DNA of 64,000 nucleotides from an uncultured Lachnospiraceae bacterium. GTDB lineage: Bacteria; Bacillota; Clostridia; Lachnospirales; Lachnospiraceae. The stretch covers positions 53,991 through 117,990 of the forward strand of contig CAJODN010000016.1 in NCBI GenBank assembly GCA_905233695.1, read 5' to 3'. Position 1 is the first letter of the stretch. Each line of letters opens with the position of its first letter. The position numbers and the translations under genes are program-made. Below the pieces are notes generated by a model. It had not been told where the DNA came from. It did no database searches and saw nothing but the letters and a program-made list of their open reading frames with translations. Of this stretch, positions 2,987-58,570 are shown piece by piece.

Positions 2987-3058
2987 AAAAGATATGACAC
3001 TATGCCCGACCGCCTCATACAGAAAATCGGCTTGTCGGACATAGTGCTCATATCTTTT
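2987..3058. repeat. Long imperfect hairpin between ilvD and ilvB carrying the conserved family-1 apical loop TCATACAGAAAATC; possible terminator
   Basis: AAAAGATATGA/TCATATCTTTT and CACTATGcCCGAC/GTCGGaCATAGTG arms; GCC-TCATACAGAAAATC-GGC tip; right arm abuts the ilvD stop. Confidence 0.8.
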
Positions 3059-4722
3059 TATTTCAATTCTAAAACTGCTCCACGGTTACCGGAAGTTACC
3101 ATCTTCGCGTACCTTGCGGCGTAGCCGGTTGTTACCTTAGGTTCTCTCGGCTGCCACTTAGCCTTGCGTTCTTCAAGCTCTTCATCGGATACTTTGATAT
3201 CAAGCTTCATATTAGGAATATCGATTGCAATCGTGTCGCCTTCTTCCACGAGCGCAATAGGACCACCCACTGCTGCCTCCGGTGAGACGTGACCGATTGA
3301 TGCACCTCTTGATGCTCCTGAGAATCTTCCGTCAGTAATAAGCGCCACCGATGAACCAAGTCCCATTCCGGCAATTGCCGATGTGGGATTTAACATTTCC
3401 CTCATTCCCGGACCACCTTTAGGTCCTTCGTAACGGATAACAACTACATCGCCTTCTACAATCTTACCGCCCTTGATAGCGTCAATTGCATCTTCCTCGC
3501 AGTCAAATACTCTTGCAGGGCCTTCGTGTACCATCATTTCTTCTACAACCGCGGAACGCTTGACAACAGAGCCATCCGGTGCAAGGTTACCCTTAAGTAC
3601 CGCCAAGCCTCCTGTCTTAGAATAAGGATTGTCGAGAGGTCTTATAACCTCGGGGTTCCTGTTCTCCGCGTTCTTAATTGCTTCACCGATTGTAACACCC
3701 GTTACGGTCATACAATCAAGGTTAAGAAGATCAAGCTCCTTAAGTTCGTTCATTACAGCATACACACCGCCGGCTTCGTTAAGGTCCTCCATATATGTAG
3801 GTCCTGCCGGTGCCAAGTGACACAGGTTAGGAGTCTTCTCTGAGATTGGGTTGGCAAATGATATATCAAAGTCAAATCCTATCTCATGTGCAATAGCGGG
3901 AAGATGAAGCATTGAATTGGTTGAACATCCAAGTGCCATATCAACCGTAAGCGCATTAAGAATTGCATCTTTAGTCATAATCTGTCTTGCGGTAATACCT
4001 TTATTATAGAGATCCATAACAGCATATCCCGCCATCTTGGCAAGGCGGATTCTCTCAGAATATACAGCAGGGATTGTTCCGTTGCCGGGCAGTCCCATAC
4101 CGATTGCTTCCGTTAAGCAATTCATTGAGTTGGCTGTATACATTCCGGAGCATGAACCGCATGTCGGACATACCTTTCTCTCATATTCCAATACATCATC
4201 TTCGGTCATTGTTCCCGCGGCGTAAGAACCTACAGCTTCAAACATAGACGAAAGCGATGTCTTATGACCGTGAATATGACCGGCAAGCATCGGACCGCCG
4301 GATACAAATACTGTAGGAAGATCAAGTCTTGCTGATGCCATAAGAAGTCCGGGAACATTCTTATCACAATTCGGAACCATTACAAGCGCATCGAATTGGT
4401 GCGCAATTGCCATACATTCCGTGGAGTCTGCAATTAAGTCACGTGTTACAAGGGAATACTTCATTCCCACGTGACCCATAGCGATTCCGTCGCATACCGC
4501 AATTGCAGGGAACTCTACCGGTACACCGCCTGCCTCGGCAACACCGAGCTTAACGGCTTCAACAATTTTGTCAATATTCATATGGCCGGGTACGATTTCG
4601 TTATAGGAACTAACGATACCGACCATTGGCTTTTTCATCTCTTCCTTGGTGAATCCCAAGGCGTTAAACAGGCTTCTTGCAGGTGCTTGCTGCATGCCTT
4701 TTCTTGCGTTATCTGATTTCAT
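3058..4722 (-). CDS. ilvD: Dihydroxy-acid dehydratase
   Basis: [43 protein letters not shown]; start trimmed from ORF start 4803 to 4722 because AGGAGGTAATATTATG lies there. Confidence 0.95.
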
Positions 4723-4800
4723 AATATTACCTCCTAATTTTATATCTTGCATCTTCGGATCGAGAACCTGCACATTCATGACTATACTGTGTCTTCGCGA

Positions 4801-4896
4801 CAAGTACCTGCACGCTACTCTTATTCTTACGTCTCATCACCAAGTACCCGCACGCTACTCTTATTCTTACGTCTCATCACCAAGTACCCGCACGCT
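4801..4896. repeat. Tandem 40-bp direct repeat (2 units plus partial) forming the 5' arms of locus A
   Basis: CAAGTACC(T/C)GCACGCTACTCTTATTCTTACGTCTCATCAC at 4801 and 4841, partial at 4881. Confidence 0.95.
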
Positions 4897-4919
4897 CATA
4901 CAGAAAATCGCTTAGCGGG

Positions 4920-4975
4920 TCTTGGCTGATTCGCCGTTTACTTAATGTCTTGGCTGATTCGCCGTTTACTTAATG
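4920..4975. repeat. Tandem 28-bp direct repeat (2 units) forming the 3' arms of locus A
   Basis: TCTTGGCTGATTCGCCGTTTACTTAATG at 4920-4947 and 4948-4975, identical. Confidence 0.95.
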
Positions 4976-5075
4976 TCGCTTAGCGGGTCTTGCCCGCTCA
5001 TCCACTTGCGAAGTATTGTCGCTTAGCAGGTCTCGACTCCTCAGATGCTTGTTATAATACTTGGCTAACGTCAAG

Positions 5076-6176
5076 TTATATCCTATCACATATAAGGTCG
5101 CCCATCTCCTTAGTGCCGACCCTTGTGATTCCGGTTGTGTCCTTGCCGGGGGCAGGCATAATGTCGATTGTACGATAGCCATCGTCAAGTACCTTGTTAA
5201 TTGCATTTTCAATTGCATCAGCTTCCTTATCCATGTCAAATGTAAATCGAAGCATCATAGCAGCACTTAGTATAGTTGCTATAGGATTAGCAATACCTTT
5301 ACCAGCAATATCAGGTGCCGAACCACCGCTTGGTTCATAGAGTCCGAACTTCGTCTCGTTAAGACTGGCTGATGAAAGCATTCCAATCGAACCTGTAACC
5401 ATTGACGCCTCATCTGAAAGTATGTCGCCGAACATATTCTCGGTTAATATGACATCGAACTGCTTCGGATCCTTAACAAGCTGCATTGCCGCATTATCAA
5501 CAAGCATGTGCTCAAGCGTTATCTCAGGATAGTCGACAGCCACTTCTTCTACGACTTTTCTCCAGAGTCTTGATGAGTCAAGAACATTTGCCTTATCAAC
5601 AGAAGTAACCTTCTTACTTCTCTTCATTGCAATATCGAAGGATCGAATTGCGATTCTCCTAATCTCATCTTCGTTATAAGATAGGGTATCGTAAGCCTCT
5701 GTCTTACCGTTAACTTCCTTAGTCTCCCTCTTACCGAAATAAAGGCCGCCGGTAAGTTCTCGCATAATCATCATATCAAAGCCGTCGCCGATGATGTCAT
5801 CGCGAAGGGGACATGCCTCTTTGAGTTGAGGGTAGAGATATGCCGGTCTCAGATTGGCGAATAGATTAAGTGCCTTTCTTATTCCGAGAAGTCCGGCTTC
5901 GGGACGCTTGTCAGCGGGAAGCTTGTACCAGGGTGATGTCTTGGGGTCACCGCCGATTGAGCCAAGAAGAACAGCGTCGGCTTTCTTAGCCTGCTCTATA
6001 GCCCCTTCCGTTAACGGTTCGCCTGTTGCATCTATTGAACATCCGCCCATCAATATTTCGTCATAGTTAAATGTGTGGCTGTATTTCTCGCCGATTTTGT
6101 CGAGGACTTTGATGGCTTCGGCTACAATTTCAGGGCCGATGCCGTCGCCTCGTATTACACCTATGTTACAGTTCAT
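5076..6176 (-). CDS. leuB: 3-isopropylmalate dehydrogenase
   Basis: 366 aa; [65 protein letters not shown]. Confidence 0.96.
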
Positions 6177-6338: not shown

Positions 6339-8552
6339 CTACTTTATTCTCCAAGCGATACCTTCATCAATCCAGCCTATATTCCTAAGGAATTCACAGT
6401 CGCTCTCTTTTGTTGTCCATACGTGCTCGCCTTCACTGCTGTTAGGATTGTAGAACTTATACTGCGCTGTTCCTTTGTTAGAGGATTCCTTATATGCATA
6501 ATAAGCTATTCCTTCATAATTCCATCCGTTCATTTTAAGCTGTATGGCATCGCCGGCGCTGGCTGTGTAAAAATGCATTCCTGTACCATTAGGATTATAT
6601 AATCTGTATACAGGTACCGCGTCCTTTTCCGAAGCGCTTACAACAGTAAAATTATCATTTTCTTCGTAGACCCAACCCTCTGACATCAGGTAGAACACAT
6701 CGCCGGGATTTTTCGTGTAGAAATGCTCACCACGATTAGGGTCGTACATACGATATACCGTGCCTTCTGATATAATATCAAGTGAAACTGTCGCTTTAGT
6801 TCCTGCTACATCATCGTATACATCTGCTGTACCCTCATTTTCATTAACAGATAAAACGTTACTGTATAAGCCGTCATCTGTACTCGTACTACCGGAATCG
6901 GTGTTGTCGCCTGTGTTACCACTTGTATCGTCGCCGGTACTGCTTGTATCACCGCCGGTACCTCCGCTTGTATCACTATCGGTACTACCGGAACCGTCGG
7001 GAGGTGTCATTCCATCGGGAGGTGTGGATCCGTCGGGAGGTGTCATTCCGTCATTACCGCCGGGCTGTCCACCATCGGGAGGTGTCATGCCTCCGTTACC
7101 ACCGGGTCCCATTCCACCGTTTCCGCCGGCCTGTCCGCCATTAGGAGGTGTCATGCCACCCTGACCGCCGGGTCCGAATCCGCCTTGGCTTGTTCCTTCA
7201 GTTGCCGTAGCGACAGAAGATCCGTTAACATATAATGTATATGTGGCTCCGTCTACAAGTGCGTCGTCCGAGAAGATTACGCTGTTAGCACTCTTTTTAA
7301 CCGTTGTTGTATATAGCGTATTGCCACTTGAATCCTTAATGCTTACGGTATTACCCTTCGACAAGCTCGCACTGAACATTACGTAGTTACCGCTTGTAAA
7401 TCCCTGCTGCATTCCGCCCATGCCGATACCGATAATGGTACCTCCTGTTACGGTTGAGGTTGAATTCTCGCCCCAATCAATGGCGTTATTATCATTCTGA
7501 GTTGATGATGAGATATCCGTCACACCACCGGATACTTTAAGCGTACCGTTAGAATCAAGTCCGTCACCACCGGCATTAATATTCCATGTTCCTCCGTAAA
7601 TGTTAAGAGAATAAGAATAGTTCGTAAGATCAGAATTAGCAGCATTGATACCGTCATCGGAAGATACTATATTGGCAGTTCCGCCGTAGAGGTTAACTGT
7701 GGCTCCTTCGAAACCTTCTGTAGAGCTTCTTACATTAATATTGGCACCACCGGTTGTTCCCTGCTTACCTATATTAAGAATGTAATCTGACTTAATTGCA
7801 TCGTCTGATGCTGATACATTGATATTTCCACCGATTATCTCAAGTCCGGTGACCCCTTCGGCACCGTCAGAGGATATTCCGTCGTTAGCCGCATTTACAT
7901 TAAGGGTAAATGTGTCAGTTGAAGTCGCACCTATAGTTATGGTAGAACCGTCACCACCCTTGATACCGTTCTTACAATTACCGTTAACGTTAAGTGTTCC
8001 GTCACCTGTTATAAGAAGTGTTCCGCTTGACTTAAGCTTAATTCCGGCACCCTCGAAATTATCGTTTTCCGTGCCGTCTTCTAAGTATTCGTCATCCGGA
8101 TCTTCATTATCTGTAAGCGTATTGGTTCCGGAAATTACGATTGTAGTATCCGTATTATCCTTATTAATTGTAATAGGTGCGCCGTCTGAGTTTGAAAGTG
8201 TTAAATTCTTAAGTATAAGTGTTACTCCCGTTGTTCCCTTCTTAACCTTCACAGAGCCCTTCGAACATGAACCGGTTATAATATATATACCCGACTGATT
8301 AATTGTAAGGTCTGTTCCATCAGCTTTGTAACCGCTATCTGTTCCGCTTGTGACTGATACCGAACTATCGGTAAATGTGAATGTGGTCTGCGCCTCCTTA
8401 ACATAGCTCGCAGATGATGTTGCGGCATTTGCCGTCATCGTACTGACGGGCACCATTGCGATTGTCATGGCGAGGAATACCGCCAGTGCCACTCCTTTCT
8501 TACCAAGTGCTCTTGTGGTTTTTCTGTTAATCTTATTATTCAATTTCATCAT
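6339..8552 (-). CDS. Secreted carbohydrate-binding domain protein (Cthe_2159-like beta-helix/DUF4353 type) with Pro/Gly-rich linker and C-terminal lipase-like (DUF5648-type) repeats
   Basis: Signal peptide; repeated GDGLDSNGTLKVSGG / SDDGINAAN motifs; GGMTPPDGG linker; YRMYDPNRGEHFYTKNPGD / YRLYNPNGTGMHFYTASAGD / YKFYNPNSSEGEHVWTT repeats. Confidence 0.8.
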   Translation of the reverse strand: MMKLNNKINRKTTRALGKKGVALAVFLAMTIAMVPVSTMTANAATSSASYVKEAQTTFTFTDSSVSVTSGTDSGYKADGTDLTINQSGIYIITGSCSKGSVKVKKGTTGVTLILKNLTLSNSDGAPITINKDNTDTTIVISGTNTLTDNEDPDDEYLEDGTENDNFEGAGIKLKSSGTLLITGDGTLNVNGNCKNGIKGGDGSTITIGATSTDTFTLNVNAANDGISSDGAEGVTGLEIIGGNINVSASDDAIKSDYILNIGKQGTTGGANINVRSSTEGFEGATVNLYGGTANIVSSDDGINAANSDLTNYSYSLNIYGGTWNINAGGDGLDSNGTLKVSGGVTDISSSTQNDNNAIDWGENSTSTVTGGTIIGIGMGGMQQGFTSGNYVMFSASLSKGNTVSIKDSSGNTLYTTTVKKSANSVIFSDDALVDGATYTLYVNGSSVATATEGTSQGGFGPGGQGGMTPPNGGQAGGNGGMGPGGNGGMTPPDGGQPGGNDGMTPPDGSTPPDGMTPPDGSGSTDSDTSGGTGGDTSSTGDDTSGNTGDNTDSGSTSTDDGLYSNVLSVNENEGTADVYDDVAGTKATVSLDIISEGTVYRMYDPNRGEHFYTKNPGDVFYLMSEGWVYEENDNFTVVSASEKDAVPVYRLYNPNGTGMHFYTASAGDAIQLKMNGWNYEGIAYYAYKESSNKGTAQYKFYNPNSSEGEHVWTTKESDCEFLRNIGWIDEGIAWRIK

Positions 8553-22578: not shown

Positions 22579-22616
22579 TGTAATCTTATCCCCTTATATA
22601 CTTTAATCTCTATCCT

Positions 22617-22685
22617 GTGCCTTCGGACCAAGTACCCGCACGCTCATACAGAAAATCGCTTAGCAGGTCTTGGCTCCTCAGGCAC
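22617..22685. repeat. Family-1 structured intergenic repeat, short form (locus B)
   Basis: GTGCCTTCGGACCAAGTACCCGCACGC-TCATACAGAAAATC-GCTTAGCAGGTCTTGGCTCCTCAGGCAC. Confidence 0.9.
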
Positions 22686-22693
22686 TTGCTTAA

Positions 22694-43373: not shown

Positions 43374-43522
43374 GTGCCTTCGGACCAGGTACCCGCACGC
43401 TACTCTTATTCTTACGGCTCATCACCAAGTACCTGCACGCTCATACATAAAATCGCTTAGCAGGTCTTGGTTGATTCTACGTTTACTTAATGTCACTTAG
43501 CATATCTTGGCTCCTCAGATTC
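43374..43522. repeat. Family-1 structured intergenic repeat with one nested unit (locus C)
   Basis: GTGCCTTCGGACCAGGTACCCGC + one 5' unit + CCAAGTACCTGC...TCATACATAAAATC...GCAGGTCTTGG + one 3' unit + TCTTGGCTCCTCAGA. Confidence 0.85.
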
Positions 43523-51495: not shown

Positions 51496-51588
51496 AAGTC
51501 AACCCCCAAATAGTTAGAAAAACACATTCTAAGTAATTATAACACATATCGAACACAATCACAAAATACCTTATTTCATTCTCATCTT

Positions 51589-51689
51589 ACATCTTCGGAC
51601 CAAGTACCCGCACGCTCATGACGAAATGTCGTATGCACACCCCGAAAGGGGTGTGCCGGTAACTTAGCGGGTCTTGGCTCCTCAGATGT
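51589..51689. repeat. Family-1 structured intergenic repeat, long-core form (locus D, 101 bp)
   Basis: ACATCTTCGGACCAAGTACCCGC...GCACACCCC-GAAA-GGGGTGTGC-CGGTAACTTA-GCGGGTCTTGGCTCCTCAGATGT. Confidence 0.92.
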
Positions 51690-51715
51690 CTGCCATGATT
51701 GAGTTTTATTAATGC

Positions 51716-58459: not shown

Positions 58460-58560
58460 GCATCTTCGGACCGAGTACCTGCACGCTCATGACGAAATGT
58501 CGTATGCGCACCCCGAATGGGGTGTGCCGGTAACTTAGCAGGTCTCGGCTCCTCAGATGC
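58460..58560. repeat. Family-1 structured intergenic repeat, long-core form (locus E, 101 bp)
   Basis: GCATCTTCGGACCGAGTACCTGC...GCGCACCCC-GAAT-GGGGTGTGC-CGGTAACTTA-GCAGGTCTCGGCTCCTCAGATGC. Confidence 0.92.
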
Positions 58561-58570
58561 TTGCTATATC

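Follow-up and report, generated by a model that had tools for sequence, protein, structure and literature searches.

The BOX and bcr1 repeats of Firmicutes are modular non-coding repeats able to fold, and the origin, spread and compounding of bacterial palindromic repeats are, more generally, poorly known. REP sequences and REPINs are short non-coding intergenic palindromes, with many copies, compensatory changes and hairpin folding (PMC3116915), while among the insertion sequences that target REPs, ISPsy8 inserts with a 3-base duplication (PMC1525189). The properties just listed for REP/REPIN are shared by a family of hairpins that we describe here from a 64-kb stretch of DNA of an uncultured Lachnospiraceae bacterium (the window, i.e., the whole of the 64,000 nucleotides analysed), in which its members were termed loci A to E (Table 1).

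About 28 nt separate the stop codon of leuB from the start of locus A. Both leuB and ilvD run on the minus strand, which is therefore read as sense. The locus is made of four concentric hairpin units, the arm types of which are mirror-ordered (a-g-b-b / b-b-g-a), the two b units having near-identical sequences. A sequence-only reading of the window had described two direct 40-bp units on one arm and two direct 28-bp units on the other, which it took for two shells of unlike unit length. These repeats do exist (4801–4840 and 4841–4880, 39/40 identical; 4919–4946 and 4947–4974, both identical), but the nest has four units (a, g, b1, b2), and its arms do not truly differ in unit length, since the 28-nt unit is the usual 40-nt unit minus GCTTAGCGGGTC (12 nt, missing between two GTC repeats); moreover, the 40-nt unit is seen on the 28-nt side of the nest in other copies. 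The pairing then proposed (ATCA-CCAAG-TA-CCYGC with GCRGG-T-CTTGG-C-TGAT) is correct and covaries across copies, and locus C has one extra shell and loci B, D and E none, as had been said.

Table 1. Positions of the hairpin units of locus A, of its neighbouring genes and of the other family members in the window.
Feature	Positions	Strand	Remarks
ilvD, downstream gene	3058–4722	minus	start assigned to the ATG near 4722, approximate
Locus A, outermost unit (type a), 3' arm of sense hairpin	4749–4771	minus	
Locus A, second unit (type g), 3' arm	4789–4811	minus	
Locus A, third unit (type b1), 3' arm	4830–4851	minus	across junction of the two 40-bp repeats
Locus A, innermost unit (type b2), 3' arm	4870–4891	minus	starts within second 40-bp repeat
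Locus A, conserved apical tip	4892–4914	minus	sense UAAGCGAUUUUCUGUAUGAGCGU; conserved across the genus
Locus A, innermost unit (type b2), 5' arm	4915–4936	minus	
Locus A, third unit (type b1), 5' arm	4947–4964	minus	without the 12 nt (28-bp unit)
Locus A, second unit (type g), 5' arm	4983–5005	minus	
Locus A, outermost unit (type a), 5' arm	5026–5048	minus	
leuB, upstream gene	5076–6176	minus	
Locus B	22615–22690	minus	single unit, type a, short tip
Locus C	43374–43522	minus	two units, a outside, b inside
Locus D	51585–51694	minus	single unit, additional mini-hairpin in tip
Locus E	58462–58566	minus	single unit, additional mini-hairpin in tip

The region 4749–5048 folds better than every one of its dinucleotide shuffles on both strands (z −4.4 and −4.9). 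In a set of 24 single inner units, both sides vary at 12 of 21 pairs, with 63 double-changed cells observed vs. 18.8 in shuffles, and the signal vanishes once the partners are slid; the arms base-pair, with strong support from covariation. An argument for a sense-strand RNA drawn from the excess of G-U pairs on that strand was rejected (13 vs. 6, not significant); in each of the three genomes compared, the sense strand folds more stably, a difference for which mismatch content may account. A kink-turn formed by the tandem GA was likewise discarded, as no 3-nt bulge lies next to it.

When searched with A and with D, the 1.7-Mb draft genome to which the window belongs yields about 65 merged loci. 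The element, an imperfect palindrome approximately 50–110 nt long, consists of two arms flanking a conserved apical tip. Its arms fall into four recurring types (a, b, g and d), all of which have the same internal loops, namely GA/GA, one bulged G and one bulged A, amid base pairs that change together. Covariance model searches found the family in all eight genomes of the genus and, with stricter filters than in the genus search, in none of 149 other genera of Lachnospiraceae; an exact match occurs in RUG145 and in Red_deer_4_mag_23, both uncultured Lachnospiraceae. Rfam gave no match at gathering score, and only chance hits below threshold when thresholds were permissive. A plasmid or phage origin was set aside, given that phage and plasmid records gave no match and that the exact pattern is absent from viral contigs. 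Since copies follow stop codons, integron attC sites, which are marked by conserved AAC/GTT core sites and cassette arrays, were considered as well; copies adjoin housekeeping genes (e.g., leuB, ilvD and infA). Several species have a family member, with differing stems, in the spacer between rmlB and a glycosyltransferase gene (G000:C5:70037, L193, L101; L099 beside rmlB). At G000:C28, two broken copies, one of them single-sided, lie about 1 kb apart (7106–7167 and 8203–8294), perhaps owing to a rearrangement or to an assembly join.

Nests were parsed with curated, hand-fitted arm patterns, so that the following counts are a reading rather than a blind measure. Among the 27 nests with complete ends in the window's own genome, the numbers of 5' and 3' arms are equal in 21 and unequal in six (2/1 four times, 2/3 and 3/2), equality thus being usual without being a rule. 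Single copies included, arm counts are equal in 55 of 61 copies vs. 29 after shuffling, while arm types are mirror-ordered in 15 of the 17 classifiable nests, and the outermost types also agree in 15 of 17, a value attained by 5 of 20,000 shuffles. Nested units have a constant spacing of about 40 nt, and nests are found in further species too. Slippage or unequal crossing-over acting on each arm separately would fit the six unequal nests, as well as the position of the 12-nt loss of locus A between GTC repeats, but mirror order and equal counts far exceed the shuffled expectation, and such a process is hardly credible. In this respect, the sequence-only reading was right to regard one-strand slippage as a poor explanation, whereas the strictly equal counts that it expected on both arms are contradicted by the six unequal nests, an outcome that it had itself named as adverse. 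Near 3087–3420 of L293 (G005:C149), repeated 3' half-units with tips, devoid of matching 5' arms, adjoin a complete copy.

Outer shells mostly retain both halves of the conserved tip, which is cut at a single position (UAAGCGACAUU^...^AUGAGCG). The 5' joint of nearly all nests listed starts with the tip half UAAG.GAYWUU (UAAGCGACAUU or UAAGCGAUUUU) or with the form comprising tip plus mini-hairpin and, unless worn, the 3' joint has the other tip half (..GAGCGUGC) at its end. Because the halves are split at the same place in outer units, the inner hairpin appears to have been placed into the loop of the outer one. In outer units with a longer tip, only the 5' side retains the mini-hairpin, and the units are spaced by 71–74 nt instead of 40 (C31_12111, C11_34735), which is the expected residue of loop insertion into a complete outer element. 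The concentric, paired growth proposed earlier is upheld by mirror order and by the mostly equal counts, but its point of growth usually lies inside. As for the mini-hairpin itself (loci D and E of the window; L277 and L102 in G002), its ends are fixed (UUACCGG...GCAUA) and its stem varies, its presence differs between close relatives, and it is perhaps another small piece that is mobile.

We consider it likely that mobile hairpins inserted repeatedly into hairpin loops, mostly those of their own family, and thereby formed concentric shells. The element would prefer hairpin loops as its insertion target, often the loop of another copy, and locus A would be a four-deep nest of such a mobile miniature hairpin. 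One loop insertion adds one arm per side, from which follow mirror-ordered and usually equal shells spaced by about 40 nt. The sides would become unequal through subsequent deletions in one of them, such as that of 12 nt in locus A. The six unequal nests speak against this explanation, as do target duplications that are not always clear and the fact that no transposase or other mobiliser was linked to the family.

A further difficulty comes from the close pair G002/G004, for which most flanks compared are about 91–99% identical. At L243:16538, a 23-bp outer shell exists in G004 only, around an inner hairpin common to both genomes (with a compensatory C-G to G-C change between them), both arms differing together. 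At face value, an outer shell was added around an old hairpin, or lost, making this site a possible exception to growth from the inside; the difference could be an outward gain or a paired loss, and the flanks are on different contigs in four more genomes. Outward growth, in which an outer shell arises by self-primed (snap-back) synthesis or template switching that copies one flank to the other side, would explain this G004 shell, as well as the outer palindromes of arbitrary sequence described below and a G001 hairpin whose stem, adjoining infA, extends into the last codons of the gene. However, the outer arms in the window's own genome are themselves family members and bear the halves of a split tip, which flank copying would not yield, and the infA case is also accounted for by a target duplication (AATT); outward growth is therefore rather unlikely. 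Elsewhere in the pair, hairpins are near-identical at at least five sites, while at three further sites G002 has a whole element and the matching G004 site none. Two G002 copies have a 32–33-nt mini-hairpin in their tip that is missing in G004, and after one and the same stop codon, the hairpin is swapped for an unrelated, inverted one. At L279, G002 has a plain outer element, where G004 has the 5' arm of that element followed by another element, which suggests an outer-first order, the outer element preceding the inner one.

The taxonomic distribution of individual sites points in the same direction as insertion. Twenty-three sites of the window's own genome were matched in G003, 15 of which are without the element, including loci A, B, C and D; the site of locus E is occupied, and the inner hairpin of the G003 copy is inverted. 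In G003, G004, G005 and G006, leuB and ilvD are separated by a short spacer without the element, and the gene order is different in three other genomes. After infA, G001 has a 48-nt hairpin unit between AATT copies, while the G007 site is clean and empty; apart from this AATT, target duplications are short AT repeats, and all are short, AT-rich and not always clear. Copies thus come and go between related genomes. Most copies in the window's own genome lie directly past a stop codon, in the same sense as the gene concerned (39 (--) vs. 7 (++)). This orientation, along with the covariation, the compensatory change between G002 and G004, the constant 40-nt spacing and the near-identical stems at several orthologous sites, would suit a single old RNA, the shells of which selection has retained for the long, rod-like structure of the transcript, changes in their number being losses only. 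Yet the sites of relatives are mostly empty, single-unit copies are as frequent as nests, and the orientation bias is weaker in G004 (23 to 11) and absent in G003, all of which makes this explanation improbable.

Loop insertion has to accommodate the behaviour of the stems as well. In G003 and G004, many copies retain the tip while their stems are mutually unrelated (mean identity of 15-nt arms: 0.28 and 0.38, respectively, rough values given that the sets include some chance motif hits), and the copying of a fixed element leaves such sequence-unrelated stems around the same tip unaccounted for. In these two genomes, 12 of 78 copies are enclosed by an outer palindrome of arbitrary sequence, 10 bp or longer, vs. 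1–2% for mispaired flanks. Between dapA and dapB, G004 (L254:5084–5250) and G003 (L194:8491–8622) have almost identical hairpins within flanks about 76% identical, and G004 has a second, related copy alongside. Since orthologous stems can be this stable, they are probably set at the origin of a copy. A possibility is that the stem is borrowed from a host hairpin, and the surplus of outer palindromes enclosing copies lends support to it. More tentatively, one may doubt that anything but the tip is constant and imagine a mobile element able to enter hairpin loops whatever the sequence of the hairpin, its own copies among them, with host-borrowed stems, nests built from inside and a putative loop-recognising enzyme. 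With before-and-after states (empty sites, plain elements, split-tip elements, nests) on offer in close relatives, strain sequencing can test the growth rule, and the findings hint at a mobilisation activity that seeks hairpin loops.

For the cell, the likeliest consequence would be that an mRNA stem-loop directly past the stop codon alters the stability of neighbouring transcripts. Such a role is plausible by analogy with the stem-loops of Clostridium operons involved in selective RNA processing and stabilisation (SRPS), which are also intergenic and located at the 3' end of genes within operons (PMC4423207); these are not described there as a repeat family.

How, then, does the family compare with known mobile palindromes? 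It consists of high-copy palindromic intergenic repeats, as REPINs do, and has terminal inverted repeats, as MITEs (miniature inverted-repeat elements) do; MITEs are further marked by a target-site duplication and by a parent transposon whose ends match theirs. In contrast, REPINs form tandem clusters whereas our hairpins nest concentrically, and the most conserved part is the tip, not the ends (PMC3116915). Mobilisation by a RAYT was rejected: a search of the genus with PF01797 revealed no association with the family, no member lying beside the Y1 transposase genes found in seven of the eight genomes (the sole Y1 gene of G000 is cut by a contig end), and the RAYT of G003 is flanked by a different REP. 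The latter (GCGCGACAGGGGGACGGGTTCCTTGTCGCG; L223, G003:C60, 1224–1320 and 2209–2312) borders a RAYT-like Y1 transposase of about 260 aa, and a similar REP occupies some sites where G000 has the nested element. As far as a comparison by literature search goes, the nesting rule seems to differ from that of the BOX and bcr1 repeats. Palindromic GC clusters of yeast mitochondria are likewise mobile hairpins with short target duplications, which exist in stand-alone and merged forms at one site across strains; they are mitochondrial and unrelated in sequence, and mirror-ordered nests with split tips do not figure in the part of their description used here (PMC4478555). Insertion sequences targeting REPs also enter a predicted hairpin at its axis of symmetry, but are autonomous and carry genes (PMC1525189), while the Lachnospiraceae insert would be a small hairpin of its own family. 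With the RAYT link lacking, we do not file the family among REPINs, even though its way of working would resemble that of a REPIN or of a yeast mitochondrial GC cluster.
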